This document shows, piece after piece, positions 4,840 to 41,900 of a DNA stretch of 64,000 nucleotides. Location: positions 34,400 through 98,399 of the IMG/VR virus record IMGVR_UViG_3300025313_000008; one strand, written 5' to 3'. The position numbers were made by a program, and so were the translations under genes. This DNA is from a virus. How positions within the stretch are numbered: the first letter of the stretch is position 1; every line of letters begins with the position of its first letter. The notes beneath the pieces are model-generated. The model did not search any database and had not been told where the DNA came from. It saw nothing but the letters and a program-made list of their open reading frames with translations.

Positions 4840-4909
4840 ATCCAGAGCACTTCAAACAATGAAGCACTTCGTCTTTCCACTCTGTATTACACTGTGGGCA
4901 TCTTTTCAT
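4814..4909 (-). CDS. 31-aa zinc-ribbon microprotein
   Basis: A tiny frame with CPQC and CLKC knuckles spaced 14 residues apart, a minimal rubredoxin-like zinc ribbon. Its start lies inside the end of the NAMPT gene (23-nt overlap), and its end overlaps the start of the phosphoesterase gene by 26 nt. This interlocked layout argues for translational coupling and for the frame being real. Confidence 0.65.
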   Translation of the reverse strand: MKRCPQCNTEWKDEVLHCLKCSGYVEVHKID

Positions 4910-7768: not shown

Positions 7769-7799
7769 CTATATACCCTAGTGTATATAAACGTTTGTT
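7769..7799 (-). promoter_or_regulatory. Class A promoter of the NAMPT operon
   Basis: On the minus strand: AACAAACG, then the TATA box TTTATATACA, then GGTATATAG close to the expected transcription start, with the first ATG at 7759. The promoter overlaps the end of radA (stop at 7799), so the NAMPT operon can be transcribed independently of radA. Confidence 0.8.
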
Positions 7800-21942: not shown

Positions 21943-21979
21943 TAATTATAAATAAAAAGAAAGTGGCTAAATAGCCACT
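21943..21979 (-). terminator. Intrinsic-type terminator of the DUF932-like gene
   Basis: A perfect 8-bp inverted repeat (AGTGGCTA / TAGCCACT, 21962-21979, 2-nt loop) overlaps the stop codon. On the minus strand it is followed by a T-rich tract (TTTCTTTTTATTTAT). Hairpin plus U-tract suggests termination; archaea normally need only the T-tract. Confidence 0.7.
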
Positions 21980-23028
21980 GGAATAGGTACTTTACCTGTA
22001 TAATCAGTTGTTATTAATTCGAAGTTTTGTAGTATTTCTGCATGTGATTCATTAATCTCTTCCTTTCTGTTTTTGCTCTTTTTGATGGTTTCCATATTGC
22101 TTCCTACGTAAGTGGATGCCATATAGATGCCATAAAGGGTTCCATCCCAATCCATTTTACCATTAAGAGTTTTGTCTGACTTGGTAAACAATCGTTTCCA
22201 GATTGCTTTTTGCATGTATTGTGGGATAGGCAAGGCGTTGATTCTCTTTTTTGCTTGTTTCTTAGTTACTTCGATTTCACGGAGTTTAAAGACTTTCTCA
22301 GGTAGAACATCTAGGCTTTCTAGGATTGCTCCAATGTGTTTGTTGATTTCTCTTGCAATTTCTGTGTTTGTTTTCATATGTCTTAGTTTGATTTCTGACG
22401 TTGAATTGTTAGAAATCATTCCATTACCACATATTATAACTACTGCTCCACCATAGAATCTTAGTGATTTATCACCATTATTCTTATTGATGTAGCTTAC
22501 AGTTTTTGCTATTTCTGAACCTTTAGTCACTGCATTTAACAATTTATAGATGCCATTAACGCCTTCAAATTTGACAGTTTTCTCAAATCTGATTCCTTCA
22601 GCAGTTAATCTATCTTCGATTGTTTTTTGAATGAATTCTTGATCTACTGACATATATTTGTTGGAAGTAAATCTAGTTACTATTCCGCCTTTATGCAGTA
22701 TTTGGAATTTCTTTGTTGGTGACTTTGGATATTTGTTTTGGATGTATTTGTTATGTGTTTCTATTCCTTCACCTTTTCTCAAAGTAGCCCTAATTTGTGG
22801 TACTAATTTGGATTTACGAACTTTAATGAAGGTTAAGAATTTACTGAATGGTCTTCCTTGAAGTACGTATTTTGTTCCAGAGTTTTTTGGACTTAGAACT
22901 ATTTGCGGTACATCAATAATTTTTCCGTAGTGATTGACTTTTACCATCTCTAAAGAAGGCATGTAATCTTTCTTTCTGATTACGTCAACAACTGAATTTT
23001 TTTCGTCTTGTATTGCTTCTACGTTCAT
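21967..23028 (-). CDS. DUF932-like protein, 353 aa
   Basis: Resembles the DUF932 / plasmid-phage family TIGR03299: about 350 residues with a VVIICGNGMIS block (~190-200), where the family has a V-C-x-N-G motif, followed by a long helical C-terminus. Biochemical role unknown. The gene has its own class A promoter (23036-23066) and its own hairpin terminator, so it is probably monocistronic. It favours C-ending codons (ATC, TTC, AAC) more than its neighbours, suggesting high expression. Confidence 0.75.
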   Translation of the reverse strand: MNVEAIQDEKNSVVDVIRKKDYMPSLEMVKVNHYGKIIDVPQIVLSPKNSGTKYVLQGRPFSKFLTFIKVRKSKLVPQIRATLRKGEGIETHNKYIQNKYPKSPTKKFQILHKGGIVTRFTSNKYMSVDQEFIQKTIEDRLTAEGIRFEKTVKFEGVNGIYKLLNAVTKGSEIAKTVSYINKNNGDKSLRFYGGAVVIICGNGMISNNSTSEIKLRHMKTNTEIAREINKHIGAILESLDVLPEKVFKLREIEVTKKQAKKRINALPIPQYMQKAIWKRLFTKSDKTLNGKMDWDGTLYGIYMASTYVGSNMETIKKSKNRKEEINESHAEILQNFELITTDYTGKVPIPVAI

Positions 23029-23559: not shown

Positions 23560-25329
23560 TTATAGGTGTGACAATCTTACTGTTGCTTCTACGTTCTTAA
23601 CTACTGCAGAGATTTTCTGAGTTCCAGTCAAATGAATCAACTGTCTCTCGTTCCTTCGCTGAGCTTCCATTGTTAAGTCTCTTCCTGAAACTAAACCAAA
23701 TGCTACATTTGGAATAAACATTACAGATCTTTTTCCACCAACGAAAGTTGTTGGAGCTATTGCAGATGATCTCACTAGATTTGTTCCAGCGATTCTTTCT
23801 ACAGTTGCTTCTGTAATTATTGCAGGTCTAGAGAATCCAATGTATGAATCCAGATCTGGATCTAATGTTAAGTCACGAATTCCTTTACCGCTAGTGTATG
23901 TGATTAAGTTTGAATCGTCTAAACCTTCATCTTGAATTACTCCCTTTGCAGAAAGTAATCCTCTGTAGGTTAAAACTCCTAAACCACCGGCATCAGCTAC
24001 TATTTGAGTTCCTGTATTACCATCGACCCATCTACCAGCTTTTGTACCACCACCTTTTGCCTTTCGAACAGTTGCTGAACCTGAAGAACCTGCATCGAGG
24101 TTGTAAGCTCGAGTCAAAACTTCTACTGATTCATCATTTATGCTCTCAAGTGCAAATGAACGGTTTGCTGAAGCAATAATATCAATCGGACTTTCCTCAG
24201 TTTGTTGATAACCGATATCTATCCTTGTACCTCTTGGATCTGTCTCTGTTCCAGCACTTCTTATGATTGGTGAAGATAATGGAACTGCTACAGCCGGATC
24301 AGTGTCTCCTTCAACGATATCGCTGAAAGTTACTGGTCCAAAGTCGTAGAAGAATGCTTCTCGTGTTCCCGGAGGCAAAACTTTTGTCTCTGTGAATTGA
24401 CGAATTGGAGTTACTACTTTTCCACTAGGTAATACTAGAACTTGTTCTGACATGATTCTCATAAAGTCTCCGTCAGCTGGTCCTGCTACTGAAATTGTTA
24501 CTGCTTCTCCGCCATAAGTCTTACCCACTTCTGTTTTTGGAACTGGGAATTTTAACTCATTGCCGTTGGCATCAAATTTCTTGTAGAATTGCTTACCGTA
24601 ATTCTCATAGATTTTCTCCTTGTTAATGTGCCAGATAAATGCTGGACTTACATTCTCTTCTCTTTGAACCGCTCTGAACCATGCAGAGGGTTTTGATATT
24701 TCTGCCTCGACAGCACTGGTCTTAGAACCATTTGCATAGACTCCTTGTGGAGTGTTTACTAATGCTCTTGGTTTTGAAGACTCTTTTGCTTGTCTAATTC
24801 GTGCATCCAAATCAGCTTCTTTAGCTAGTAATTCTTTAGCACGTACTCGCATTTCGGCTTGTTCTAGTTTTCTCAAAGCTTCGGCTTTTGCAATTTTATA
24901 TGCATAAGTTCCGTTTCTTCGAGCCTCGCTAGTTTTGTCAGCATTTGATCCAGTTAATTTAGTTGGATCTACTGCTGGTTCGCTACCGTCTTGTCCTGTA
25001 ATCAAATCGGTTATTACACCTTTCTCATTGTCATCTGGAAGTTCTGATCCTTCAACAAGATCAACATCGATCCCGTCTACTGTTTCAGCCTCTCCAGTTG
25101 CAGATGAAGCTTTTGCTACTGGTTCAGGTATTGAACGCTTACTTGCGTCACCTAAGTCAGATTTTTCACATTTTCGAGTATGTGCGTTCCAAATTTGACC
25201 ATCCGGACAATTTGCACCACCAGCAGTTCCGTCTGCACCATTATCTGGTACTCCGCTTGCTGGAAGTTTTCCTGTTGGCTCTATTTGATCGCTAACATCC
25301 TCTGTTGCTTTTCTAACCTTTGTAGGCAT
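23560..25329 (-). CDS. Major capsid protein (HK97-like, inferred)
   Basis: 589 residues from the ATG at 25329. An in-frame ATG at 25365 overlaps the TATA box (25349-25360) and would lie upstream of transcription, so it is rejected. It lies immediately after the prohead protease, the standard place. An N-terminal disordered part and a coiled coil (~120-190) resemble a cleavable delta/scaffold domain. The rest is mixed alpha/beta with a long helix (SPIDIIASANRSFALESI) as in HK97 folds. A strong class B promoter and a T-rich terminator fit high expression. Confidence 0.8.
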   Translation of the reverse strand: MPTKVRKATEDVSDQIEPTGKLPASGVPDNGADGTAGGANCPDGQIWNAHTRKCEKSDLGDASKRSIPEPVAKASSATGEAETVDGIDVDLVEGSELPDDNEKGVITDLITGQDGSEPAVDPTKLTGSNADKTSEARRNGTYAYKIAKAEALRKLEQAEMRVRAKELLAKEADLDARIRQAKESSKPRALVNTPQGVYANGSKTSAVEAEISKPSAWFRAVQREENVSPAFIWHINKEKIYENYGKQFYKKFDANGNELKFPVPKTEVGKTYGGEAVTISVAGPADGDFMRIMSEQVLVLPSGKVVTPIRQFTETKVLPPGTREAFFYDFGPVTFSDIVEGDTDPAVAVPLSSPIIRSAGTETDPRGTRIDIGYQQTEESPIDIIASANRSFALESINDESVEVLTRAYNLDAGSSGSATVRKAKGGGTKAGRWVDGNTGTQIVADAGGLGVLTYRGLLSAKGVIQDEGLDDSNLITYTSGKGIRDLTLDPDLDSYIGFSRPAIITEATVERIAGTNLVRSSAIAPTTFVGGKRSVMFIPNVAFGLVSGRDLTMEAQRRNERQLIHLTGTQKISAVVKNVEATVRLSHL

Positions 25330-25340
25330 ACTAATTAAAT

Positions 25341-25370
25341 TTAAGCATAATTCCTTTATAAGCATTTAAT
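25341..25370 (-). promoter_or_regulatory. Class B promoter of the major capsid gene
   Basis: On the minus strand the core reads TTAAATGCTTATAAAGGAA. The TATA box CTTATAAAG lies about 25 nt before the ATG at 25329. The element is 28/30 identical to the one at 44443-44472, and its distance to the ATG differs by only 3 nt. Confidence 0.8.
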
Positions 25371-25416: not shown

Positions 25417-27534
25417 TTATGCAGTTGTTGAATTATAATTAAATGGTGTTGAAGTTGTAGTTGCCATTACATCGGTTGTAGTAAATGTAATATTGCCTGT
25501 TTCCGATGAAGTTAAATATGGTATAGCTAATGATTCTGCTATTATTGTTTGTTTCGCCCTTTTCTTTAAGTTTGCTTCTACTGCTTCAATAGTTGCTATT
25601 GGAAAACCGGGGTGATATACTAATGAAACTTCTCTAAATTCTGCTCCTCTAATAAGTGTATAACATTCTTGATCACAAACTTGTGGAGAATCAGAATCAT
25701 ACCAAATTCCTAATGATACCGCCATTTGTGCATCATCTACTTCCCTTTGGAAGAATTTGTCTATAATTACTCCTTCATAATAAAGTGTTAATTCTTCGGC
25801 TACCCATTTTAGTTTAACCCATCCTATTTGGTAATCTTCATTTTTTTCAAGAGAACCTCTCATTTTTTCGTCTAATCTATCTAATTCTTCTTCTGCTCCC
25901 GCTACATTGCTATGATTTAATAAAAGTGGCAATGTTTTACCGTCACCTTTTGCTAATTCTTCAGGGAGATAAATACGATTATTTAAAGAAACTCCAGCAT
26001 ATGCTAATACACCTTTTATTTTCTTTCCTTTTTGTTCAATAGTTGGTATTCCAAATAAAAGACCAACTCCTTCATGTGCAGGTCTCTTTAATTTTAATAT
26101 ATTTATTTTTCTTTGAACCCAACCTTCAAACTGTTTCACTGATTTAGGACATACTAGGCACTCTAAGCTTTTTTTTTCAAATGGGTTTTCGGAATCCTTT
26201 TTCTTTTCGAATGGATTATCTGCCTTTTTCTCAAATGGGTTCTCTTTCTTTGGTTCTTGAGGCTGAGTTGATTGTTGTGGTTGTTGATTTAATGGTGGAC
26301 TTGAACCCTGCGGTTGCTGTGTTTGATTTGGTGGTTGATTTGGCATTTGGGTTGGTGTTTGTTGTAATCCAGATTCATTTGGTTGCACACCATCTACATT
26401 GCCGTCTCCTCCACAACGTGGACAATCTTTTAAACCTAAATGTTCAACGGTTACTTTACCAGTACCTTTACAAAAATCACAATTACCTATATCATTTTCT
26501 GAAGCTTTTTTTTTAACTTCAGTATAAACAGTTTTAAATTTTAATATTCCTTTCTCTTTCATAATTATTTTTTCAACAGCAATAACTTCTTCAACTGGTT
26601 CCTTTTGTTCTATTGGTTCCTCTTTTGGTTTGTCTACGTTTTGAGTTATATTTCCTTGTGGAGTATTAATAGTTGGAATTTCTGTTGTTTCTGCTGGTTT
26701 TTGAACTGGCAGTTCTTCTTCGTGTACTTCAAAAATGTTATACTTTTTATATTTACCATTTGATTCTTTTATTATAATACTTTCACTAGTTGGATTTAAT
26801 TGAGGTGTACTTGTTGCAGTTGTTGGTTGTGGCATTGATGATTGTGGGTTTGGAACTATATCACCTTGTTCCTCAGCATCTTTAACATAATAATCATCAT
26901 CTAATTCTAATACATCTTCGTCTGCTTCTTTCCAAAATTTGTTATCATACTCCAAATCATTGTCTTCTGCTTCTCCAGCCCTTGGAATGTAAATTTTTCC
27001 ATCATATTCTATTGATTCTACTTTATTATATGATTCACCATTATATTCAAGACTTTGATGATCTTCTCTCCTTTTGTCTTTATTTTCATCTTCATTTTCT
27101 ATATGTTTTGAACCATTTAGTTTTCCATATGCATTGGTTTTCTTAATATCTGAATCTTGACTAACTTCTGAACTTCCTTGATGTCCTACATTTGCTGGTT
27201 CTGCTTGATCTTGTGGATTTGCTGATGGTTCTGCCTTATCCTGTGCTGGATTTGCTGGCGATAATTCACCTTGTCCAGAAGCAAATGGATTTTCTGCTTC
27301 TCTTGAAGAACCTTGTGGAGATGTTAAATCTTGTGGATCTTCTGTTTTTACATCATCGGCATTTGGTGAAGTTAAAGATTGAGTTTGTTCTGGAACTTCT
27401 GCCTCATTTTGTTTTCTATCAATAGTTGCTACATAAGCGTCTGCCCTTTCTTTTGGCAATCCCTTACTTTGTTGAACTGATTTTGAGGCGTCCTCAAATT
27501 TATCATAAGTTTGATCCCCCATCTTGATAGGCAT
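25417..27534 (-). CDS. Prohead protease (S78-like) with large N-terminal extension
   Basis: 705 residues. The C-terminal ~460-690 is an HK97-type (S78) capsid maturation protease: putative catalytic His541 in LLLNHSN and Ser607 in MAVSLGIWYD, then the hallmark AEFREVSLVYHPG. The N-terminal two thirds are an acidic, Pro/Gln-rich, scaffold-like extension. They contain a DnaJ-like zinc motif (CDFCKGTG...CPRCGGDG, residues ~353-380) and tandem PFEKK repeats near 430-450. The fusion probably combines scaffold and protease functions. It lies between portal and capsid genes. Confidence 0.85.
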   Translation of the reverse strand: MPIKMGDQTYDKFEDASKSVQQSKGLPKERADAYVATIDRKQNEAEVPEQTQSLTSPNADDVKTEDPQDLTSPQGSSREAENPFASGQGELSPANPAQDKAEPSANPQDQAEPANVGHQGSSEVSQDSDIKKTNAYGKLNGSKHIENEDENKDKRREDHQSLEYNGESYNKVESIEYDGKIYIPRAGEAEDNDLEYDNKFWKEADEDVLELDDDYYVKDAEEQGDIVPNPQSSMPQPTTATSTPQLNPTSESIIIKESNGKYKKYNIFEVHEEELPVQKPAETTEIPTINTPQGNITQNVDKPKEEPIEQKEPVEEVIAVEKIIMKEKGILKFKTVYTEVKKKASENDIGNCDFCKGTGKVTVEHLGLKDCPRCGGDGNVDGVQPNESGLQQTPTQMPNQPPNQTQQPQGSSPPLNQQPQQSTQPQEPKKENPFEKKADNPFEKKKDSENPFEKKSLECLVCPKSVKQFEGWVQRKINILKLKRPAHEGVGLLFGIPTIEQKGKKIKGVLAYAGVSLNNRIYLPEELAKGDGKTLPLLLNHSNVAGAEEELDRLDEKMRGSLEKNEDYQIGWVKLKWVAEELTLYYEGVIIDKFFQREVDDAQMAVSLGIWYDSDSPQVCDQECYTLIRGAEFREVSLVYHPGFPIATIEAVEANLKKRAKQTIIAESLAIPYLTSSETGNITFTTTDVMATTTSTPFNYNSTTA

Positions 27535-27536
27535 AT

Positions 27537-27791
27537 CTAAATTACCTCTTCGTCATTTAAAAGCTTTCTTTTTTTCCTTTCTTCAATCATATCCATTTCA
27601 GCCTCATTTGATACAAATCCCTTACAATTACACTCTATTCTATCGGGCTTTCTTTTGACTATTTTAAGGCATCTTACGTCTATGTGGCTAGAATACTTGT
27701 GTTTACATCTAAAACATGTTCGAGATGAGCGAGGCGGTCTTTTCCACCATTTTTCTGTCTCTTTTACCTTTTTAACCATTTTGAGCACCAT
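27537..27791 (-). CDS. Basic zinc-binding protein, 84 aa
   Basis: CFRCKHKYSSHIDVRC (~25-40) and CNCKG form a Cys/His-rich metal site, flanked by strongly basic helices. The start is ambiguous between ATG 27791 and ATG 27779, both overlapping the previous gene. It lies inside the head module, between portal and protease. DNA contact during packaging is one possibility; function unknown. Confidence 0.7.
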   Translation of the reverse strand: MVLKMVKKVKETEKWWKRPPRSSRTCFRCKHKYSSHIDVRCLKIVKRKPDRIECNCKGFVSNEAEMDMIEERKKRKLLNDEEVI

Positions 27792-27984
27792 AAATATACA
27801 CTTTTTCGCCTTTCAAACTCTTTGCAAATTCTCTAGCTTCTTCCGCAGTATTAGTGTGTTTTACAACGGTTACTCTATTTCCTATATCTGAATATTCATC
27901 ATATGTACAAACATTGAATCCTTTCTTTGGTGTTGTTCTTAATTGTTCCTTGATAACTAATTCTATGTAACTTTCATCTGTCAT
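27772..27984 (-). CDS. Hypothetical protein, 70 aa
   Basis: The ATG at 27984 overlaps the portal stop codon (ATGA), so it is preferred to an in-frame ATG at 28020 inside the portal gene. Alpha/beta pattern with an ending like EEAREFAKSLKGEKVYIYG. Function unknown. It is translationally coupled to the portal. Confidence 0.72.
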   Translation of the reverse strand: MTDESYIELVIKEQLRTTPKKGFNVCTYDEYSDIGNRVTVVKHTNTAEEAREFAKSLKGEKVYIYGAQNG

Positions 27985-30900
27985 TGTAAGCACCCTATTA
28001 TAACCAATTCTGGTGGACATTCTGGCGGATTTGCTTTTTTACCACTATCCAAATCATAGAAATAATCCGACATCTTATAAGAATAATCTGTTATAATGTT
28101 CATATTTTCTTTTAAATATTCCTTCATTTCATTATCAAATGGTTTATAAAATTCATGAGCCCAATCTGCCCATTTTTGCTGATTTGGCGTTCTTACCTGA
28201 ACTTCAGAAACTAATCCTTGTTTATCAATAATTGATAAGTGAACGCTTCTATATCCTCCTTTTGAGTTTTCTAAATATTTTTCTTCATTTACAATATTAT
28301 AATTTTCTTTCATATGATTGACTGTTTTATTTACATCATTTAGATTTTCTAATACTAGTCTAACTGCTGATATATCATTTAAATCAGATACATCTTTATA
28401 CAAATTAGGTCTTCTTGCTAATTTTTCTATCATACTGTAAGTTGTTTTCACTCTTCCTGTTACATCTGCATTAGGAAATTCTTGTTTCAAACTGTCAATA
28501 ACCTCTTTGACTCTTTTTTGATGTTTATCTTGTAGTTTTTCTGATTTGATCGCTTGTTTGGTTGCTGTTTCATGATCAAATTTATCTGGAAATGTGTTCG
28601 TAATATCCCTAATTGCATCTGTTCTTTCAATTTGTCTTGAATCATCTATCTTCACCTTTGTTGGTTTTCCCTTTTTTTCTTCTGGCTTCCTTCCTCTTCC
28701 CCTTGTATCCCATCCTTTCTTCGCTCCTTCTGGCGTTCCTGTTTCCTTCGACTGATCTTTTTTTTTTCTCATATCTTTGAATCTTGGTGCTCCTATTACT
28801 TTTTTTGCTGGATTTACAAATACTTGTTCGGACTGAACCCTCATTCCATCAGAAGTCAAAGCCTCAGATACTTTTTTATCTTCGTCTTCCCCTAATACTG
28901 GTTCCCAACCTTCTTCTTTTGGTTCTTCTGGATTAAACAGTTTTTCTACCCTTCCTTGTGGTTCATCAGGTGTAGTATTGTCGAAAACATTGGTATTATC
29001 TTGATTTTGTTTGTCTAATTCAGCATTAAATTGATCTTCTGATACCATTGGTGGTTGATTTATAGGCTCATTTTGATGTCGCTGTCCTTCCAATTCTGCC
29101 TCATATTCCTCCTTAGTTACAATCTCATTTTCCAATTCAACGTTTGGTTGAGTTTCATCTGAATCTGGAGTTTGATCAAATCTTAAATCTGGAACTTCAT
29201 TACCTTGTTCATCAGTTAAGTCTGTATAATTTACTCCTGTTTCTGGATCTACATGTAATTGGTCTGGATCTATCTCATTTGGATCTACTCCTTGATCAAT
29301 ATTTTGTCCTTGTGATGGGTCTGCATTTGGCACTGGTATATCTTTCTGTGTTGGTTGAACTTGCTGTACGTCTTCTGGCTTTACGATCATTCCATCATCA
29401 TGAGGAACAGTTCCTATTGGATCTTCTCTAGTTGGATTTTGTAAGCTATTAGTTTCATCAGGTCTTACATTTAATCCACTTTGATCTATTGGTGGATCGC
29501 CCGGCGTTGGTAATGTAGAATAATCATCATTTCCTGTTAATTCAGCTTGTTTTAATCTATATTGATCAGATTGTCCTATTGCTGGTTCAACAGCATTTCC
29601 ATCTTCACTTATATCATTCTTAATATCATCTAAATTAGTTGCTTGATTTGTAGATTGTCCTTCTTTTGGTGGTCTACTTGGATTTATTCCAGATATGTTG
29701 TTTACTGGTGTTTCTTGTAATGGAGTATCATCTAATTGTGCTTGACCTTTTTGTGGTTCATTTAGATGTGGATTTGGATCTTCAAAAGGTAAACTTGGAT
29801 CTGAGTCTTCTGGCTTCTTTGCGTCTTTATGTGGTTCTTCAAGTGGATCAGGTTTTTTATTTATTTTTTCCGCTTCATTTAATTGCTGACTATTCTCAAG
29901 TTTCTTTAATTTTCCACTCTTTTTATCTTCTTCATCTTTGCCAAATCCTTCCGCTTTTTCATATGGTGGTTCATCTCCTTTCAGTGAACCTAATTGCTTC
30001 AAATCTGGATTTTCAGGTTCATATCCACCTGTTAAACCTCTACTTAAATTATCTCTCTCACGAGGTCCGATATTTGTAGTTTGTGGTTGTCCTTCTTCTG
30101 GTTCTGCTGGTTCATTTTGTATATCTGCCAAATCATGTGGATCTTTTATATCACCAGTAGAATCTTGGTTTATTCTTTGGTCTCCAGTTCCGCCTTTAGT
30201 ATGATCTCCCTTTACCTTACCTTCTAATTCATTAACATAATCGCTTAATTTAACCTGAGGTGGTTGATTAACCACATTTCCAGAAGCATCTACTTGTGGA
30301 ATTCCTTGTCCTCCAGCATTTGTAAAGTCTATTCCTTGACTATCTCCTCTTTTTGCATTCAACATATTTCTTCTTGCTTCTTCTTGTGGATCTAATATTG
30401 GTGGATTCATAGAATCTGCTCTTCTTTGTGGTGCGTTTGGTGGTAGTTCACCTTCAAACTCATCTTTATCCAATCCATACACTTTTCTTAATTCTGGATC
30501 TGTAACATCTGGGCGACCCGGCGTATCTAATCCTTGTGAAACATACAAATCAGATGAACTATTGCTTAATGCTCCTGCCTTTGGTGGTAAAGATATTCTT
30601 TCCTGTGCTTTTAGAGTTGCTTCTACTGCCTTTAAAACTATTTTTTCCACATCGTCTTCTGTCAATGATTCTCCCTTTTTCTTTCTAAATATAGATGGTT
30701 CCTGTTTGTCTGTTCTTGTAGGTGATGGTCTATCTTTTTCAATATCAGGTCTTGGAGGTGTCGTTGGAGCTGGTTTTGTATCACCTTTATCATCTCCTCC
30801 AAACGGTGGTTTTCCTTTATCTCCTATTGGTGTTGGTTCTCCTCCTCCAAATCCATTGTTTTGAGCCTGAACCATAGCAGTATCTTTTTGGTCTTGTTTG

Positions 30901-32168
30901 TCTTGTTTAAGTTCGTTTTGAAATTCATCATAAAGTTGGTCATCTAATGGAATGTTTAATTTTTTATACATTTCTCTCTTTTCTTTAGGTGCTACTGATT
31001 CTGGATCGAGTAGTTTAATATCATCCATTGTAAGTCGTTTAACGTTAGGAGTAAATGATACTTCCACTTCCATTTCTTCAAATTCTTTAAATCCCCATGA
31101 TTCTGCTAATGGTTTTAATAGCTTGTCAATAATGAGTTCGGCAACATCGTTTTGCATGTCCACCATTCTTTGATCTAAAACGTCTAATGGACTTTGAGCA
31201 CTTGAATAACTAAATCCGCCGGGATGGGATATAACTTTTGAAGCAAAGCCCGTAGCTATATCAATGTGTGAATCTACGTTATCTCCATAATCATCAAAAC
31301 GTGTTTGTGCCTGTATTTGTAGTTCTTTTGAATCAACCGGTTTATCAAAAATCCATATGTATTGATCACTGTTTGGATCTGCCATTTCTAACTGTACTTG
31401 CTTCATTTGATCTTGTGGCATTCCCGGAGCAGATACAATGAGTCTTGGTTTACCCATTTTCTCTTTAATTTCTACTTCAGCATTTTGTAGAATTGCTTGA
31501 GCATCTAATAATGGACGTAAGTTTCTATCGGGGTTTATAGGCTGACCTGTGAATTTATCAACTTTTGTAGTTACGGGTCTTGGTGATGCAACAGAAAAGA
31601 ATTCAGATTTTCCAAATGCTTGTCTATCAGGGTTATTAATCATCCAATGCATAAAGTATTCTGGATCGAGTTCTTTGAAAACACCGTCAACAACTTGTAC
31701 TAGTTTAAGTTCATTAGCAAACTGATCCCTGAAAACCCTGAATATAGTCTGCATAGGAATATGTTCTACGTTTCCTATTCTTCCATCAGGTGTATATTGA
31801 ATCTCCATTATTGCGTTTCCTGTAATTAATCCAGATAAGAAATACTCACTAAATTTTTTTCCTGCGTTTGTTGTTTTCCACCATTTTTCTATAAAAACAT
31901 TAAAATATTCATTGTTAGATTTTATTTCTATTCCTGCACCAATTAGTTTTTGATGAGAAGTATCCATGGATCTTTTAATTTGATCCCAATGATGATAAAA
32001 TTCAAATAATCGTTCAAATGTTACTGGAGGAAATTCTCCAACTAATTGTTTAGAAGGACCTACCACTGTTGCATTCTTTTTTCTTACAATAGAACCTAAA
32101 AGTGAGTTAAATGTTTGAAATACTTTTGGTACTGCTTCACTCGCTTTTCGTCTAAATCCAAAAGCCAT
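27981..32168 (-). CDS. Portal protein fused to a RelA/SpoT-like synthetase domain
   Basis: 1395 residues in three parts. Residues 1-~430 form a phage portal domain (HQKLIGAGIEI, FLSGLITGNAIMEI, GFSYSSAQSPLDVLDQR), the dodecameric DNA gate of the capsid. Residues ~430-1180 are an acidic Pro/Gln/Asn-rich low-complexity linker. Residues ~1180-1360 match the RelA/SpoT nucleotide pyrophosphotransferase fold: GRVKTTYSMIEKL (~1238-1250), DISAVR with the putative catalytic Asp1265, GGYRSVH (~1304-1310) and EVQVRT with Glu1322. No HD hydrolase domain is seen. The frame is open throughout. The enzyme would be carried on the virion or released from it; product and target are unknown. Confidence 0.9.
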   Translation of the reverse strand: MAFGFRRKASEAVPKVFQTFNSLLGSIVRKKNATVVGPSKQLVGEFPPVTFERLFEFYHHWDQIKRSMDTSHQKLIGAGIEIKSNNEYFNVFIEKWWKTTNAGKKFSEYFLSGLITGNAIMEIQYTPDGRIGNVEHIPMQTIFRVFRDQFANELKLVQVVDGVFKELDPEYFMHWMINNPDRQAFGKSEFFSVASPRPVTTKVDKFTGQPINPDRNLRPLLDAQAILQNAEVEIKEKMGKPRLIVSAPGMPQDQMKQVQLEMADPNSDQYIWIFDKPVDSKELQIQAQTRFDDYGDNVDSHIDIATGFASKVISHPGGFSYSSAQSPLDVLDQRMVDMQNDVAELIIDKLLKPLAESWGFKEFEEMEVEVSFTPNVKRLTMDDIKLLDPESVAPKEKREMYKKLNIPLDDQLYDEFQNELKQDKQDQKDTAMVQAQNNGFGGGEPTPIGDKGKPPFGGDDKGDTKPAPTTPPRPDIEKDRPSPTRTDKQEPSIFRKKKGESLTEDDVEKIVLKAVEATLKAQERISLPPKAGALSNSSSDLYVSQGLDTPGRPDVTDPELRKVYGLDKDEFEGELPPNAPQRRADSMNPPILDPQEEARRNMLNAKRGDSQGIDFTNAGGQGIPQVDASGNVVNQPPQVKLSDYVNELEGKVKGDHTKGGTGDQRINQDSTGDIKDPHDLADIQNEPAEPEEGQPQTTNIGPRERDNLSRGLTGGYEPENPDLKQLGSLKGDEPPYEKAEGFGKDEEDKKSGKLKKLENSQQLNEAEKINKKPDPLEEPHKDAKKPEDSDPSLPFEDPNPHLNEPQKGQAQLDDTPLQETPVNNISGINPSRPPKEGQSTNQATNLDDIKNDISEDGNAVEPAIGQSDQYRLKQAELTGNDDYSTLPTPGDPPIDQSGLNVRPDETNSLQNPTREDPIGTVPHDDGMIVKPEDVQQVQPTQKDIPVPNADPSQGQNIDQGVDPNEIDPDQLHVDPETGVNYTDLTDEQGNEVPDLRFDQTPDSDETQPNVELENEIVTKEEYEAELEGQRHQNEPINQPPMVSEDQFNAELDKQNQDNTNVFDNTTPDEPQGRVEKLFNPEEPKEEGWEPVLGEDEDKKVSEALTSDGMRVQSEQVFVNPAKKVIGAPRFKDMRKKKDQSKETGTPEGAKKGWDTRGRGRKPEEKKGKPTKVKIDDSRQIERTDAIRDITNTFPDKFDHETATKQAIKSEKLQDKHQKRVKEVIDSLKQEFPNADVTGRVKTTYSMIEKLARRPNLYKDVSDLNDISAVRLVLENLNDVNKTVNHMKENYNIVNEEKYLENSKGGYRSVHLSIIDKQGLVSEVQVRTPNQQKWADWAHEFYKPFDNEMKEYLKENMNIITDYSYKMSDYFYDLDSGKKANPPECPPELVIIGCLQ

Positions 32169-32170
32169 GT

Positions 32171-32527
32171 TTAATCACCCACCATGAAGCCAGTCCAAGT
32201 TCCTTTAAATAAATTACCTGAATTAAACTGAACTAATCCTCTAATTTTCCATCTTCCGTCAACATCAAAAATCCCTGCTGAATCTATTTTTTCTATCAAA
32301 CCATTTTGAGCATCTATAATAGTTGCTACTAACAAAGGCTTTCTTTTTCCTTTTGGAATCTCTAATTCTATCCATACGGTTTGAGCAGTTGTTAGATTCA
32401 CTGGTTCCCTTTCTGATTCTAAACCTTTAACGTCTTCCGGTGCAATAGTATCTTTTACTTTTGTTATCCGTACACGTAATCGCGTGCCTATGTTACCTAC
32501 CTTAATATCTGGAATTATGTTTACCAT
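32171..32527 (-). CDS. BppU-like Ig-fold virion protein, 118 aa
   Basis: A beta-sandwich pattern (LRVRITKV, TVWIELEIPKGK, LLVATIIDAQNGLIE, GRWKIRGLVQF) like the N-terminal domain of phage baseplate upper proteins and other small Ig-like virion domains. It starts 3 nt upstream of the portal in transcription order. A TATA-like box (about 32562-32572) precedes it. It may be a decoration or neck protein. Confidence 0.65.
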   Translation of the reverse strand: MVNIIPDIKVGNIGTRLRVRITKVKDTIAPEDVKGLESEREPVNLTTAQTVWIELEIPKGKRKPLLVATIIDAQNGLIEKIDSAGIFDVDGRWKIRGLVQFNSGNLFKGTWTGFMVGD

Positions 32528-32587: not shown

Positions 32588-35500
32588 TTAAACTTCATGA
32601 CCTATCACCGATTCTACATCCAAAATTGATTGTGGCTCGCCTACTACCCCAACAAATGCATCTATTCTAAATGATCTAATTTTTGCCAATTTTGCATTTA
32701 TTAAATATGTTGATTGGTTTCTTTTTATTATTTTTGCATTTATTGTAAATGGTTTATAAGAAGGTTGGAAAATATGAGCATTAATAAAGAATGGTTCATC
32801 CGTGGTAACTGCCGATGCGAGAACCAATATAACACTTGGAGTAACGTTGTTTACTGCTGTTCTTCTTACTATTCTAGCATTTACACTTACCTGTGCTGGA
32901 AGTGGTGAAAGATGTGCATTTATAGTAAATTCTTTCCTTCCTATTAATATTGCATTCATTTTAAACTCTATCTCTTTTTTACCTTTAGTTATCACACCAA
33001 CAGAAAATGTTTCTATTTCTATCCCTGCATTAAGCATAGATATGGTGTCTCCATGAATTAATACCTCTGTTGGCGTACTTGAAGATGTATTGTTTAATCC
33101 AACATAGCCTATCCACATTCCTGTTACATGTGATTCGAAATCCCATGCATTTGTTTCACTTAATATAGCACTACTATCAAATGCATCTTTTAAGTTAACA
33201 CCTTCTATTTCAGCTACTGAACCAGTGGGATTTGATAACGAAATAGGTACATCTGATGAATTGTTGATTATCCATTCTGTTCCATTCCATATGTAAGCTT
33301 GACTTCCAGAAGTTCCATATAATTTAAACAATATTCCTCTTGTTGATGTTGGTATATTTGGTGTTCCTAATATTAATTCATATCCTACCATTACTCCAAC
33401 TGGATTTGATTGTAAACTTAAAATATCTGCTCTCATTTTTGCATTTAGTGATAATGGAATATCCAAGCCTGATCCATCTGTTCTAATTATTGCTGGCAAG
33501 AATCTTGAAACAGAAACTCTTCCAGTTCTACTTCCAGATCCAGTTCTTGTATATAATTGATCTATTTTGAATGCTTTTGTTCCTTCTACAGGAGACTCTG
33601 GCGAAACCTCATGTATATCAATTAATGGTGTAAAAGTTCCACCAGTTACTTCATTTTGACTTATCCATGGAATTGGATTTTGGTCTCCAGTTGCATAACC
33701 ATCCCATGTTTCTATAAACGAACCCGTAGCTGGAACAAATTTCTGTGGAATTGTTGGTAAATTACCTACATATTGAGATACACAAATATCATCTATAGAT
33801 CCTTGAAATATTCTTCCACCTCCACTTGCAACATTATTTCCAACCATTATATATCTAAGATTTGTTGGATTTACTCCAATAGCATCAACAGTGATAGGAC
33901 TTCCTCTTATATGTTGAGTTCTAGCAGAATCTTTATATGTACTCAATCTTAATTTATTATTTTTTAATTCAACTCTTACGTAATAAGGTCCTTTTAATGA
34001 AGCATCTGAAGCTGGAAGATTACTATTTGGATATATCCATAAAGAATGTTGGTTTTTTGCTCCAGAAGATGTGGTTTTAGTTGTTGTTGCATCGTTTACT
34101 ATGCCATTCATTGCTATTGAATCACCAATTACATTAATAAGATCAACTCTAATAGTGCCATTTGTACCTTGTTGTTGTGGATGAGATGTTGTCGCACAAA
34201 GCCCTATTGAAATTACGGCTGGAAAGCCAATTTGCCCCATAGCATCATAATCAAGTTTAAAATCAAGTCTAACATCACCCGAAATAACACTACCTATATC
34301 TTTATATGCATATCTAGGAAAACTTCCTCCTCCACCATCTAGGTTTAATTTTATCAAATCTGGATATAATGGATCATCAATAAATATTCTAGTATTAACA
34401 TTGACTCCTACTTTTACCCATCCGATGCTCGTTGAAATATCATCACAAATAGTTACTGCGTGTAATATTATAGAACCACCATTAACAAAACCCCAATCTC
34501 TTATTGTACCTGTTAAAACATTTGTTACTTGTGAATTACTGAAATTATATTCTGCTACTGTTGATATATCTATACTATCAAAAAGTATATTGTTGTAAGG
34601 AAGTTGTTGTGAATCAGCATTAATGAAAAATACAGTGACAAAACCTGTTACAGAATTAGCATAATTAATACTTGAAGCTGGTAAAATTAAACTCTGTCCA
34701 AAATGAGGTCCGAAACTTACACTTGCACTTGTAGATCCTAATAATCCTCCTCCTTTTGGTATTATATTTGCCGATACTGCAATAGCATCAGGAAAATCAA
34801 CTTGTGAAGCTGGATCATAGATACCATCATATACTGCAAGTCCAATGCTTGATACATATCCAGATATCTCTGACCAAATCAATTCTATGTCACTTCCTAT
34901 TATACTTTCTATTGGAAATGTTTTGAATAAATACCCATGTCCTAAAGAATTATTAACACTCCCACTAATCATTTGAAATCTATTAGGTGCTGTACTCTCC
35001 CGTTGAAAAGTATAAACTGGATTAAATACGCCAGTAGATGTTTTATGTTCTCTAAAATTCCATGCATCTGTTGGTGGTGAAGGTGGTGCTATTAAATCAT
35101 ATGAATAAACACGACCGTTTGTTTGTCCAGTAATAAATAATTTTAATCCATCTGGCTTAAAAAATACACTTGATGGAGCCGTATCTTGAGCACTCACTAA
35201 AATACTTTGAAAAAATACTGCTGTTGATACATTCCATGCTGTAGAAAGATTATATTCATATACACGATCATTTGTTGCTCCTGTTACAAACATTTTTAAT
35301 CCATCAGGTTTAAAAAATACTCCAGTTGAAAATGTATCTTGAGCATTTATATTTTTGCTTTGAACAAATGAAAGTGAAGGATTTGTTATATTCCATGCAG
35401 ATGATAAATTAAATTCATGTATACTATCATTACCCGCATCAGATATATACGCTTTCAATCCATCAGATCTAAAGAATAAATCTGTAGGAGTTGATAATAT

Positions 35501-35905
35501 TGAACTTAAATCAATAGTAGTTATATCAAATGATGCGGTTGATATATTCCATGGTGTTGATAAATTATATTGATGTATTCTTGTACTACCAACATCGCCT
35601 TTTACTATAAACATTCTAGTTCCATCAGGTCTAAAAAATACCCCAACTGGTGAAGATGTGTTTGCATCTACATCAAAAAGTTGAACAAATGAGGCAGTTG
35701 TTATATCCCACGCAATAGAAAGATTGAATTCATAAATTTCATTTGATTCACTACCTATACCACTACCATTGATTCTTGAATTATTTACAACATACATTTT
35801 CAATCCATCGCTTCTAATATATAATCCAGTTGTAGCATGGGTTGAAGCAGTTACTACCGATTTTGAGTTTAAAAATACCGATGTAGAAATATCCCACGCT
35901 GTCAT
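32588..35905 (-). CDS. Fibre with beta-propeller, LamG-like and 'NAxL' repeat domains, 1105 aa
   Basis: Residues ~1-280 hold five or six repeats of about 47 residues with FF[KR]PDG[LT][KR]MF[IV] and EYNLS.AWN, the layout of a beta-propeller. Residues ~285-900 contain jelly-roll lectin-like domains. Residues ~960-1085 contain the same short repeat (F.I[ND]A.[IL]) that fills the next gene. It ends in DVESVIGHEV, similar to the neighbour's ending. The start overlaps the previous stop by 1 nt. Probably a receptor-binding virion protein. Confidence 0.8.
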   Translation of the reverse strand: MTAWDISTSVFLNSKSVVTASTHATTGLYIRSDGLKMYVVNNSRINGSGIGSESNEIYEFNLSIAWDITTASFVQLFDVDANTSSPVGVFFRPDGTRMFIVKGDVGSTRIHQYNLSTPWNISTASFDITTIDLSSILSTPTDLFFRSDGLKAYISDAGNDSIHEFNLSSAWNITNPSLSFVQSKNINAQDTFSTGVFFKPDGLKMFVTGATNDRVYEYNLSTAWNVSTAVFFQSILVSAQDTAPSSVFFKPDGLKLFITGQTNGRVYSYDLIAPPSPPTDAWNFREHKTSTGVFNPVYTFQRESTAPNRFQMISGSVNNSLGHGYLFKTFPIESIIGSDIELIWSEISGYVSSIGLAVYDGIYDPASQVDFPDAIAVSANIIPKGGGLLGSTSASVSFGPHFGQSLILPASSINYANSVTGFVTVFFINADSQQLPYNNILFDSIDISTVAEYNFSNSQVTNVLTGTIRDWGFVNGGSIILHAVTICDDISTSIGWVKVGVNVNTRIFIDDPLYPDLIKLNLDGGGGSFPRYAYKDIGSVISGDVRLDFKLDYDAMGQIGFPAVISIGLCATTSHPQQQGTNGTIRVDLINVIGDSIAMNGIVNDATTTKTTSSGAKNQHSLWIYPNSNLPASDASLKGPYYVRVELKNNKLRLSTYKDSARTQHIRGSPITVDAIGVNPTNLRYIMVGNNVASGGGRIFQGSIDDICVSQYVGNLPTIPQKFVPATGSFIETWDGYATGDQNPIPWISQNEVTGGTFTPLIDIHEVSPESPVEGTKAFKIDQLYTRTGSGSRTGRVSVSRFLPAIIRTDGSGLDIPLSLNAKMRADILSLQSNPVGVMVGYELILGTPNIPTSTRGILFKLYGTSGSQAYIWNGTEWIINNSSDVPISLSNPTGSVAEIEGVNLKDAFDSSAILSETNAWDFESHVTGMWIGYVGLNNTSSSTPTEVLIHGDTISMLNAGIEIETFSVGVITKGKKEIEFKMNAILIGRKEFTINAHLSPLPAQVSVNARIVRRTAVNNVTPSVILVLASAVTTDEPFFINAHIFQPSYKPFTINAKIIKRNQSTYLINAKLAKIRSFRIDAFVGVVGEPQSILDVESVIGHEV

Positions 35906-38900
35906 TAAGTACCACCTATCCCGAATGTAGATTCAATACCAATCATACTTCCATCATTAATTACTGATTCTGCTTCAATTCCCACGTCTATCAACTCTCC
36001 TATGAATGCACTTATAGTAAAGGCGTTAGTCTTATTTAGCTTTGCGTCAACTGTTACTTTAGCTTGTCCAACTCCAACCAATGCATCTATAGTAAATGTA
36101 TTAGTGCAGAATAGATTTCCACTACAAGCTAGACATTTTATTAATGCATCTACCAATGGTTTTACTGTATGTGGTGGATCTATGAAACTATCAATTATGA
36201 ATATTTCATCATATCTATTCACTATCTTTGAATCAATAGTTGTCATCTTGAATGGGAAAACCAATTTGGCATCTATCGTAAATACCTTTGTATTTGGTTG
36301 TTCTGCAAACGTATCAATTATAAATGTAGATGTTCCTATCTTTTTTACTAAAGCGTCTACTATTACAGTTTGTAATACACCTAACTTCTTAACCAATGCG
36401 TCAACTATACTAGTTAGTTCTATTCTATCAGCCAATAAAGCATCACAAGTAAATGTTTTCACTTTTCTCAATCTCAGTAATCCATCGATACGCCATCTAA
36501 CATTTCTAAAGTATGTAATTGCATCTACAATAAATAATACTGGAGGCTGTGTTACTGCCAATGAAGCTGTTATATCAAATGTTATTTCTTTGTCTTTTAC
36601 TATTAATATAGTATCAGTCAAAAATCCATTAACTTCATTCTCTTTCTTTAACAATACATCAACTGTAAATATAAATGGAACAATTATTTTTAAATATGCA
36701 TTAATATTTATCGTATTTTCTGCTCCAAATTTCTTTACTATTGCATCTACAAAGAAGAATTTACTTGGTTCATTAATTATAAATGCATCTACTATGAATG
36801 GAGCAACTTTATTAAAGTATTTTGTTGTTCCGTCTATAGTAAATATCTTTGTTTTTATTTCTGCTATCAATGCATTACAGTTAAATATTTTGTTTATGTC
36901 CTCTGTCTTTAGATCCGCGTCTATGAAAAATGTTTCATTAATTGTACCCTTTAATATAGAATCAACACTAAATAATTTTCCGGGTTCAACCAATAATAAA
37001 CCATCTATACTAAATATTACTAGTGAAGGTATTAATATAGCATCGACTTCAAATCTTTTTATTCCCCCTATTACTATAGCATCTATTAAGAAGTTCTTGA
37101 TTTTTATATTCACTAATTCCGCATCAATTTCAAATGTTTCGTAAATTGGCAGATATAATACAGCATCTGTTGATAATACTTCTGTAAATGCAGATTGTAA
37201 TACAGCATCGCATTTTGGACAGTGGTTTCCTATTCCTTCTATGATATCATCGCCATTTATTACTTCTACTCTAATTACTATGTCTTTAGATATTGTTGTC
37301 AAGTACATCCATGTTAATGGATCAATTATAGAATTTGATTCTCTTCTCATTACCGCACTTCCAGAAATTACGTTACTATCTGATATAACTGGAATTGCTA
37401 TACCTACTCCCTTCGGAGCATTTGTATTTACACCTACAAAATGCTGTAATCCTATTACATAATTACCAGTTAAGAATGGTGTTGTCAGATTATCATAAGT
37501 AAATATAATTTCTTTCCATACTCCAGATGGTAAATCTCCAGATATATTTTGTGCATTTATAGTGTTTTCTGATGTTGCCTCAACAATTTCGCCAGCAAGG
37601 TTTCCTACAACTACATTACTCCATATTTTTCCTGTAATTAATGATGTGTCAGTTATTTCATTAGGAAAACCACTTGCTCTTAACAAAAATGTAACACGTC
37701 TTACCTGTTGGTTATTAAGAACCACCTCTTGTCCTATTAACATATCAACACTTTCTTCATGATCTGGAGTAATTGGTCCCATAAATTGTTCTAATCCCGT
37801 ATCTATTGCAAAGTTTGTATTAGGATAGAAATTACATATTCCGTTGACTCCTAACATCTTTATTAATGCATCTATATAAAATGTCTGTATATTAGTTTCT
37901 CTTATTCTCGAATCTACAGTAAATTGTTTATTTATAGTAAATTGTATTAAAAATGCATCTATTGTAAATGTAAAGAAAACTCCCTCTATTAAAACAGCGT
38001 CAATACTAAATGTTTTATCTACGTTTTGTAAATTAACTATTGCATCTATTGTTATTAATTCTGCTGGTGGAACAAATGGAATACCATCTATTGTAAATAT
38101 CTTGTTTACTGCTCCTTTTAACAGTGGATCTACTGTAAATGTCTTTAATGGACTAGCTAATAAAACAGCATCTACATTAGAATATACGTTTCTAACTATA
38201 TATGCGTCTATATTAAATAGTTTTATTCCTCGTAATCTAGCATCTATACTAAATTTAGATTCTCTTACTAATCTAGCACTTATAGAAAATGTTTCTCCAC
38301 TGAATCCAGAAAGATGAGCATCTACATAAGCTACTGGACATGGAGATGAAAATATCTTAATATTATCAACTTTCCCTATAGTATCTGGTTCTGCTGTAGG
38401 AGCACTTTTGTCGTTTGCGCCAATTATTAACCAACTAAGGTCTAACTGTTCCTTATTTACTGAAGAAGTATCCACATTAACTGGAGATCCTGCTATATGG
38501 GTTGTATGTGTTATATCTGTATATGCATTTAATGTTAATGTGTTTCCTAATGATTCCATTACAATGTATCTTTTTGTTCCTGTTCCCACGTTTAATGTTG
38601 GTGTATTTACATTAACGAACCCATCATCCAATGTAGCAGATATTATTCCTAATCCAGCCGAATTAATATGTAAAGATGATGTATTAGGATCATTATCTGG
38701 ATGTAAGCTTGATTTATTAAGCACTATAAATCTTCCTTTTGTTCCAGATAGGTATGTAAGTTCAAAGTCTACTCTAATATTGTTTCCTCTTACTTTTCCT
38801 ATTCCTCCATATGAATCCAGTTTCTTTCTTCTATATTTTGACTTTAGAATTGGTTGCATTGCTCCAGTGTATCCGCCCGGTGGCATCTGGATATATGCAA

Positions 38901-41900
38901 TTCCATTTAACGGTTCTTGTGAAAGTAGTGATTCTCCATCTATGAATATTTTTTGTGTTCCCCAACCATCTACTACAGTATTATTAACTTCAATACTCCA
39001 ATTAGATGTAGTTGTAAAGTGTTCTTCAAATATATTCTCAAATGGACATCTGTTATCTCCTAATGCCTTGATAAGAGCATCTAAACTAAATATATGTAAT
39101 CTTACAAGATATGCGTCTATTGTAAAGTTGCCCTGAATTGCAATATCTGTAAAAGTATCTATTGTGAAAGTTTTTGTTTTTCTTTTGCTTAATAATGCAT
39201 CTATAGTAGGTCTAGTTCTATATACTAATTTTGCATCAACTGTAAAGTTTTCATCAAATGTATCCTGTAAATAAGAGTCAATAAGGAAATTTGGACATCT
39301 ATCTGCATATATTACTAAATCCTCTATTTCTCCAGTATATTTTCTTGCACTACCCGGACCTGCAGGACCTACGTTTGAAGCTTGCACATATAAAAATGGA
39401 ACTTTAATCTGTGATGATACATCTAATTGAACTGGACTTCCTGTTACATGGATGGTTCTTGCTGAATCTGAAAACATACTTAATGTTATTATACTTGCTA
39501 GATTCTTATCTATCCTTACATAATATGTTGTGTTATTATTCATTGGAATTGCAGTTGCAGTAGAAAGTACTGGATCTGATATTGTTGATCTATAAAGTAT
39601 TCTTATTCCTTCACCATCAGGTCCATCTCCTGCATTAATTCTATATTCTATTTTCGGTACTATTGCAAATTGATGACCTATTCTTGTTGTCGTATCAGTA
39701 AGTCCAAATACAGCATATGATTCAAATCCTGTACATCCTCCAACGTTATTATGTGTAAACTCTATTCTAAATTCTTCGCCTGTTGGAATTGGTAGTGTTT
39801 TTATAGCTTGAGAACCCGGATTAGGTGAATTAACACAGTTATATCTTAACACATTGGGGTTTGCTATTGAATCTACTGTAATCAGTCCAAATGTTGTCCA
39901 TCCTGTTGATGAATCAAAGTTATCTGAAAATATTGGAGTTAAAACACTACATAAGGTATCTCCAGTCATTTTTAATACTGCGTCTATAGTATATGTTTTA
40001 GTTTGCACATATCTTAGTCTGGCTTGAACCGTAAATGTTTCTGTTTGTGTTAATCTTAATCTTGCATCTACTAAAAACACCGCCACTGTTGCTCCGGCTG
40101 GTGTTAATATTGAATCTAATGTAAATATCTTAGTTTTTGCTTGTTCTAATACTGCATCTACTGTGAATGTTTTTACCTTCTCTTTTTCTAATAAAGCATC
40201 TATACTAAATGTATTATAAATCGGCAGATATAGCACAGCGTCTATCGATAATGTTTCCGCGAAAGTTGCTTTTAATATGGCATCCACTGTTGATACTAAT
40301 GATGATGTTAATTTTACTCTAGCATCTATAGTAAATGATTCTATCCCACTTATAATTATTGAAGCATCTATTAAAAATAAAGCAGATGGAACTACAAATG
40401 GTATTCCGTCTATAGTAAAGTTAAAGTTTTGTGTTGCTCTTAAAATTGCATCTATAGTGAAATTAACATCAAACCTACTTACTAATACTGCGTCTATATC
40501 TAATGTTTCGTCAAAAGTCTCTTCAAGTAATCCATCTATTGTAAATGTATTATCAAAAGTATTCTCTAACAATCCATCTACATTAAATGTCTCATCTTGT
40601 GTTTTTCTTAATAAGGCGTCTACTGTAAACGTTTCAGTAAAAACTGCCCTTAATCTCGCATCTAATGTAAATGTTTCTGTGTTAGTTGTTTCTAATTCTG
40701 CGTCTACTAAAAATGTTTTATCCTGTGTTTTCTTTAATAATGAATCAACTAAGAAAATTTCATTTTGTGTTGCTCTTAATATAGAATCTACAGTAAATGT
40801 TTCATCAAATCTTGCTACTAAGATAGAATCACATGTAAATACTTTAGATGGAAATACTATTATGATAGAATCTACAGTAAAGTTATTATCAAATGTTGCT
40901 TGTGTAAATGTATCTACCGCAAATTGAATTGCTTTTATTACTATTCCGTCTATCTTGAAAGTCTTTATCTGTGCTAATCTTGCATCTATATCAAATTCAC
41001 TTGTTTGAACTATCTTTAACCTTACATCACAGGTGAAAGTATTGCTTTGAACTTTTCTTAATCTTGCATCAACGGTAAATGTTTCATCTTGCCTTAATTC
41101 TAATAATGAATCTATTAAAAATGATTCAGTACCTTCTTGTTTAAGTAATGAATCTATTAAGAAGTTAAATATTTGTGTAGTCCTTAGTAAAGCATCGCAA
41201 GTAAATGTCTCAGTTTGTGTTTGTATTAATATAGAATCACAGGTAAATTCTTTTCTTTGTATTAATCTGGCATCTACAGTAAATTCTTCTAATGCCGATA
41301 ATCTCGCATCTATTGTAAATTCCTCTAATGCTGATAGTCTAGCATCAACTGTAAATTCTTCTCTTTGTGCTAATCTAGCGTCTATTGTGAATGTTTCATC
41401 AAATGTCATTTCTAGTAATGCATCTACTAAAAATAGTTTGGTTGTTTCTAATTCAAGAAATGCATCTACTAAGAAATTGAATGTTTGTGTAGTTTCTAAT
41501 AAAGCATCACAAGTAAATGTTTCGTCAAATCTGTTTACTAATATAGCATCACATGTAAATGTTTTATCGAATCTATTTACTACTATTGCGTCACAAGTAA
41601 ATTCCTGTTTTGGTTGATCTGCCATGACAACCCATAAGAATTTCCATGCACTTGAGGCTAAGTTAGTCCAATCCATTGTGAACTTATTAGTTCCAAATGA
41701 TGCGTCGGCTTCTCCATCTACTGTTGGTGCTCCAGCACCTTGATCTAGTATTTGTATTGCTTTTGTATTAGATAATGTTCTACCATAAAACATTGTTGTA
41801 TTGGCATCTAACTCTGAAAATCCTCCACAAATTTCTGTTGAATTCGCTCTTGCACCTATAACAAAAGAACCTGTTTGCTGTGATGTACCTTCTGTTGTTC

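Follow-up and report, generated by a model that had tools for sequence, protein, structure and literature searches.

A viral portal protein fused to a RelA/SpoT-type synthetase domain in a probable thaumarchaeal virus

The window examined here is the whole 64,000-nucleotide stretch at positions 34,400 to 98,399 of a viral record (IMGVR_UViG_3300025313_000008). On its minus strand a single frame runs from an ATG at 32168 to 27981 over 1395 codons, free of stops (ORF check of the window). ORF, Pfam and homology evidence confirmed the preliminary description of this frame as joining a portal, an acidic linker of about 750 residues and a RelA/SpoT-type (RSH) synthetase. The fusion gene lies, by the homologies of its neighbors (Table 1), in a head-assembly operon, upstream of a prohead protease and an HK97-type major capsid protein, as is the case for the portal in Caudoviricetes.

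Table 1. Features of the fusion gene and the adjoining head genes (window coordinates)
Feature	Position	Strand	Evidence and remarks
118-aa gene directly upstream of portal	32171..32527	(-)	conserved in L031/L032 (27%, 6e-12)
Portal-linker-RSH fusion gene	27981..32168	(-)	1395 aa; identical in L002/L003, 90% in L004
Portal domain, residues 1-430	30879..32168	(-)	homology to Nvie-Pro1-5 and L032 portals
Acidic, proline/glutamine-rich linker, residues 431-1179	28632..30878	(-)	composition; dN/dS 0.15
RSH (RelA/SpoT-type) synthetase domain, residues 1180-1395	27984..28631	(-)	PF04607, PDB, motif table, dN/dS 0.22
82-aa gene	27772..28020	(-)	overlaps RSH 3' end by 40 nt; Nvie-Pro1-7 homologue (3e-6)
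84-aa cysteine-rich protein	27537..27791	(-)	kept beside portal in RSH-less relative too (67%)
Probable prohead protease, 705 aa, zinc-finger-like insert	25417..27534	(-)	homologous to N-terminal part of Nvie-Pro1-8
Major capsid protein	23560..25365	(-)	homologous to C-terminal part of Nvie-Pro1-8

We examined if the fusion frame could have arisen through misassembly of two unrelated genes, one for a portal and one for an RSH. Nothing was found in favor of such a join. The frame recurred in three further viral contigs, two of them (L002/L003) with 0 differences from the window gene and the third (L004) a separately assembled variant, 90% identical overall and 81% within RSH, that kept the whole frame and differed by codon-length indels only. 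Comparison of the window with this variant gave dN/dS values of 0.07, 0.15 and 0.22 for portal, linker and RSH, so that the linker itself appears constrained, and by this measure the RSH domain is under purifying selection. Since a divergent variant keeps the whole frame at these dN/dS values, the gene represents neither a mis-join nor decay; a join artefact within it is very unlikely, to the point of being barely credible. Scans of viral contigs mostly returned the same three near relatives, with L031/L032 added by capsid and portal profiles; viral contigs scanned with P0003 gave no match, and genome contigs scanned with A1 and with P0003 yielded no relative.

The window protein itself had no direct Pfam or PHROG portal match, and the assignment of its N-terminal ~430 residues as a phage portal was borne out through its relatives. 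Residues 13–562 were 47% identical (3e-175) to the L032 portal, which matched the Pfam families SPP1_portal (4e-5) and Portal_Mu (6e-4); residues 47–423 aligned (2e-7) with Nvie-Pro1-5, which matched Portal_Mu at 9e-8, above the family cut-off. No MuF domain was matched in the fusion protein, the N-terminus being portal. The linker has a disordered-type composition (residues 431–1160: net charge −65, rich in P/D/E/G/K/Q, 19% hydrophobic). AlphaFold models of the portal, from an input of two near-identical rows, and of RSH, from single-sequence input, gave pLDDT values of 35.4 and 48.6, too low for a usable structure.

A profile search of the C-terminal domain was significant, with PF04607 matching residues 1238–1341 at 1.3e-18 (67.8 bits; cut-off 27). 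The best solved sequence relatives were the RelQ/RelP small alarmone synthetases (PDB 2be3, 5dec, 5f2v, 6ewz), with 2be3 matched at 8e-12, or 8e-19 by profile. The motifs GRVKTTYS, DISAVR (D1265), GGYRSVH and EVQVRT (E1322) were present and numbered as previously described, and 18 of the 18 synthetase positions checked (R, K, S, K; D; GYRSxH; E.Q.RT) were identical to those of RelQ-type enzymes; D1265 and E1322 are the predicted catalytic residues of what looks like an intact active site. Only the synthetase domain was found: Pfam detected no HD, TGS or ACT domain in the fusion protein, as had been claimed for the hydrolase. The Syn signatures read AVR / SVH / VR, not the RYT / GxN / YH of Apk2, and agree with guanosine-type signatures; an Apk2-type (p)ppApp synthetase was not favored, since these motifs differ. 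The bacterial "phage" matches to RSH that were examined were RelQ-type, long RSH or stand-alone proteins, without a recognizable head part, and were not portal fusions.

The same gene order, portal, RSH, small gene and protease-capsid protein, occurs as genes nvie-Pro1-5 to -8 of the Nitrososphaera provirus Nvie-Pro1 (FR725450). Its RSH, annotated in FR725450 already as Rel_Spo-like, is 41% identical to the window RSH and retains 17 of the 18 synthetase positions; it is encoded by a separate gene in another frame that overlaps the end of the portal gene, and, being unfused, its incorporation into virions is not assured. The window protease matched Nvie-Pro1-8 at 2e-17 and its L031/L032 counterpart at 60% identity, and the C-terminal part of Nvie-Pro1-8 matched PHROG major head proteins. 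L031/L032 are closer to the window than is Nvie-Pro1 (capsid 54%); they share its portal and the first ~130 residues of its linker, and have neither RSH nor the 82-aa gene. Both are present in the window, L004 and Nvie-Pro1, and since they are absent together in L031/L032 they behave like a cassette (n=3 lineages). The 82-aa protein had no Pfam family match and none to antitoxin families; it is a candidate immunity protein, or it could be a small head protein. An HD hydrolase (PF13328), sought as an immunity gene, was not found in the 98.4-kb record, which may be incomplete.

Portal, protease and major capsid protein, homologous and in the same order, place the virus with the Nvie-Pro1-like thaumarchaeal head-tailed group, and the record encodes the archaeal-type replication genes MCM, RadA/Rad51, PCNA and Prim-Pol. 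The earlier assignment to an archaeal virus agrees with these genes and with a capsid module homologous to that of a thaumarchaeal provirus; from the same two lines the hosts are probably thaumarchaeal archaea of the ammonia-oxidizing type. An Nvie-type terminase was sought across the full record and not found.

We propose, at about an even chance, that the portal subunit has a second role, bearing an effector of the RSH pyrophosphokinase type in the way that MuF proteins bear polymorphic toxins; the synthetase is probably an enzyme carried in the virion and used on the host, its activity, packaging and delivery being read from sequence and gene context. The C-termini of the P22 portal face inward (PMC4992974), and up to twelve RSH copies would lie on its lumen-facing side in the present virus, each on a flexible tether. 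The prohead protease may cleave the linker, and the RSH copies would enter the host together with, or ahead of, the DNA. There they would transfer pyrophosphate from ATP to a nucleotide 3'-OH, most likely of GTP/GDP, and host growth and translation would be slowed, or purine nucleotides drained, early in infection; the 82-aa protein would keep RSH inactive in the producing cell. Against this, delivery of a portal-fixed RSH needs cleavage or threading.

The enzyme might instead act in the producing cell, where newly made portal subunits would raise alarmone or deplete nucleotides late in infection and shut down the host, with virion inclusion incidental. RSH is encoded among late head genes, translation could also begin separately and in frame ahead of it (Met1109, Met1133), and the unfused Nvie-Pro1 enzyme would remain cytoplasmic unless packaged; yet a twelve-copy portal fusion is an odd route to a soluble late enzyme, and enzyme–head-protein fusions are generally taken as packaged effectors (PMC5576092, PMC9503650), which leaves this a doubtful possibility. 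It is unlikely that the domain acts as toxSAS enzymes do, in which case it would block translation by pyrophosphorylating host tRNA at the CCA end, and the small gene would encode its antitoxin. The RSH domains of FaRel2 and CapRel did match the window profile (7.6e-7 and 6e-6), and tRNA, being present in every cell, would be a sensible target given that tested archaea had no detectable (p)ppGpp (PMC8646023); the best matches, however, were to the alarmone-type RelQ/RelP (8e-19), not toxSAS, and the small gene resembled no antitoxin family.

A structural or sensory exaptation, in which RSH binds ATP/GTP on the portal and regulates packaging or assembly, its catalysis lost or unused, would fit attachment of the domain to the packaging gate and the faster evolution of linker and RSH than of portal. 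We consider it quite improbable, as catalytic residues are conserved between viruses 41% identical in this domain, and the portal of a close relative lacks RSH altogether. Carrying the effector reading further, portal-tethered RSHs of archaeal tailed viruses may be injected as active alarmone synthetases into hosts that themselves lack a stringent response; the small overlapping gene would be the first of a new immunity family and the portal a polymorphic-effector carrier in archaea; this fuller version is offered only tentatively.

The preliminary description was sound as to domain architecture, lack of a hydrolase and archaeal virus, and overstated the novelty. It held MuF and RelA/SpoT toxins to be known separately, which is wrong, as fusions of MuF head proteins with toxin domains of the RelA/SpoT type were described in 2012 (PMC3482391) and surveyed in 2017 (PMC5576092). 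A portal with RSH in an archaeal virus, thought to be new, is so, within the searches made, as a single-chain fusion; an RSH at a provirus portal had already been annotated (FR725450). As far as searched, what is new is the single-chain fusion, the series of split, fused and absent states among relatives, and the RSH and small-gene cassette. The concept of head proteins as effector carriers is thereby widened from bacterial MuF to an archaeal portal, the series shows how such cassettes are gained and lost, and the 82-aa gene is a concrete candidate immunity gene.

Among known systems, RelQ/RelP share the Syn motifs of the window RSH and are stand-alone bacterial enzymes, unlike the viral structural-protein fusion seen here. 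The toxSAS toxins FaRel2 (8pu1) and CapRel (7ztb) likewise have RSH-fold toxin domains; they belong to bacterial toxin-antitoxin/defence systems and are less similar to the window RSH than are RelQ/RelP. The Apk2 MuF toxins (prophages of S. pneumoniae, B. caccae and M. haemolytica; PMC12226406), assayed as toxic (p)ppApp synthetases with small immunity genes adjoining (PMC12226406, PMC11699363), resemble the window in that a head protein has a C-terminal RSH-fold synthetase and that the locus lies beside head genes and is followed by a small gene. Their carrier is MuF rather than portal, their phages are bacterial and temperate, their signatures are RYT/GxN/YH versus AVR/SxH/VR, and their loci encode a hydrolase, Aph1, whereas none (PF13328) was found in the 98.4-kb record. 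Phage portals that bear a Nudix, 2H or ART enzyme, thought to be head-packaged and injected, offer the same kind of carrier with other enzymes, no RSH being among them in the available text (PMC9503650). Pro-Nvie1 (FR725450) shares with the window the order of its homologous genes, from portal through RSH (41%) and small gene to protease and major capsid protein, and differs in that its RSH is separate, the 750-residue linker is missing, and protease and capsid protein form one protein.

The C-terminal domain of the fusion protein was matched by PF04607 (RelA/SpoT synthetase family, RSH) at residues 1238–1341 (1.3e-18, far above the family cut-off), and its nearest solved structures were small alarmone synthetases (2be3, 8e-12; 8e-19 using a three-sequence profile). 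In an alignment that included eleven RSH proteins taken from contigs of the phage collection, 18/18 checked synthetase positions in the window protein were the RelQ types, D1265 and E1322 among them; a Pfam domain search of the protein found no hydrolase, TGS or ACT domain. The preliminary description of a RelA/SpoT-type domain with intact key motifs and no hydrolase thus held, and the domain is probably an active synthetase.

The N-terminal portal it proposed was also borne out, and is visible only through relatives. The window protein by itself had no portal match in Pfam or PHROGs; residues 13–562 were 47% identical (3e-175) to a protein of L032, one of two related contigs (L031/L032) with a portal and without RSH, and this homologue matches SPP1_portal and Portal_Mu. 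A distant homologue (2e-7), Nvie-Pro1-5 of the Nitrososphaera provirus Nvie-Pro1 (FR725450; reportedly described by Krupovic et al. in 2011), matches Portal_Mu over the curated cut-off. By homology, then, the N-terminal part is a portal. The linker (431–1160) carries a net charge of −65, and hydrophobic residues make up just 19% of it; the window protein and the RSH-less relative have its first ~130 residues in common.

That this is one open frame, rather than an assembly join, is supported by two contigs in which the gene has zero differences, and by a separately assembled variant (L004) whose fusion protein is 90% identical, with the frame kept and indels of codon length only. The dN/dS for window versus L004 (Nei–Gojobori) was 0.07 for portal, 0.15 for linker and 0.22 for RSH, so that RSH is constrained while changing faster (81% identity, versus 94% for portal). 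The fusion gene is real and under selection.

Archaeal-type MCM, Rad51/RadA and PCNA within the window, and Prim-Pol outside it, point to an archaeal virus. The sole relative of the window capsid protein in 50,697 phage records was that of Nvie-Pro1 (5e-40). Nothing similar to the large terminase of Nvie-Pro1 (TerL) turned up in the 98.4-kb record, a linear and possibly incomplete sequence; the terminase is either very divergent or absent from an incomplete record. The 2304-aa repeat protein, with its 1105-aa neighbour, may be a fibre or adhesin.

Coordinates of the fusion gene and other features (window positions unless stated)
Feature	Position	Strand	Remarks
Portal-linker-RSH fusion gene	32168 to 27981	minus	1395 codons, ATG to stop
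Nicotinamide phosphoribosyltransferase-like gene	4887-6269	minus	PHROG 448, 3e-57; NAD salvage in a putatively archaeal virus
Rad51/RadA recombinase	7799-8998	minus	Rad51 match in three pieces, HypA-like cysteine-rich stretch between
DUF932 protein	21967-23028	minus	4e-11; among head and tail genes, just past capsid gene
Probable prohead protease	25417-27534	minus	~450-residue low-complexity N-terminal part with DnaJ-like CxxC zinc motif
1105-aa protein	32588-35905		With 2304-aa protein, just upstream of head genes
2304-aa protein	35905-42819	minus	Many short ETFTVDARL / KTFTIDALL-type repeats with larger inserts
Mom-family DNA modification protein	L016 10255-10851 (full record G000, outside window)		8e-34
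Nvie-Pro1 portal and RSH region	L005 4429-6445 (provirus record)		RSH open frame starts at ATG 5753, 60 nt upstream of annotated GTG

The capsid of L031/L032 was 54% identical to that of the window, and their portal stops at 678 aa. Both RSH and the 82-aa gene overlapping its 3' end were looked for in these contigs and neither was present; the cysteine-rich 84-aa gene was retained. Because the window is more closely related to L031/L032 than to Nvie-Pro1, joint loss, or joint exchange, of RSH and the 82-aa gene is the simple reading, and in this sample of three lineages the two are taken as a putative cassette. The 82-aa protein had no Pfam family match and, in the phage collection, nothing except its Nvie-Pro1 counterpart. 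A search of the record for an alarmone hydrolase gave none, which leaves the 82-aa protein as the one immunity candidate identified; that it is the immunity partner of RSH is a tentative proposal.

The distribution of the portal–RSH fusion is drawn from viral contigs, and no such fusion was found in the open-licence literature. The preliminary claim that MuF carriers (phage head proteins) and RelA/SpoT toxins have been described only apart from each other was incorrect (PMC3482391, PMC5576092, PMC12226406). MuF-RSH proteins synthesise (p)ppApp and are lethal to E. coli when the neighbouring immunity proteins are missing (PMC12226406, PMC11699363). Few archaea have RSH genes (PMC3153485), and (p)ppGpp was undetected in Haloferax or Sulfolobus (PMC8646023). 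In P22, C-terminal portal domains face the capsid interior and nearby proteins exit via the portal (PMC4992974); portals that carry other enzymes are regarded as packaged and injected (PMC9503650). The sequences themselves establish how the protein is built, that its active site is intact, that it is under selection and encoded in the head operon, and the cassette pattern; beyond this, RSH copies would hang within the head on the flexible linker, be freed or ejected upon infection, and pyrophosphorylate a host nucleotide. Carriage within the virion is reasonably likely, and for delivery into the host as an effector the chances appear even.

The Syn2/3/4 signatures of the window RSH are AVR, SVH and VR, those given for guanosine-type enzymes by the authors describing Apk2, a MuF-borne (p)ppApp synthetase with RYT/GxN/YH instead; GTP/GDP is therefore the more likely acceptor on signature grounds. 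Swapping Syn motifs failed to convert specificity (PMC12226406), so these motifs are a weak predictor.

The genes of Nvie-Pro1 run portal, RSH, 72-aa gene, protease-MCP, and those of the window run portal-RSH fusion, 82-aa gene, 84-aa gene, protease, MCP; the last two are one fused protein in L031/L032 and Nvie-Pro1. The provirus portal tail carries a NPYHDERGRFAS motif directly ahead of the overlap (about 89 nt) between the portal gene and the RSH open frame. The Nvie-Pro1 RSH is 41% identical to that of the window, as a separate gene in a different frame, and its deposited annotation reads 'protein with N-terminal Rel_Spo-like domain'; the window gene therefore presents, in fused form, a feature that was already documented.
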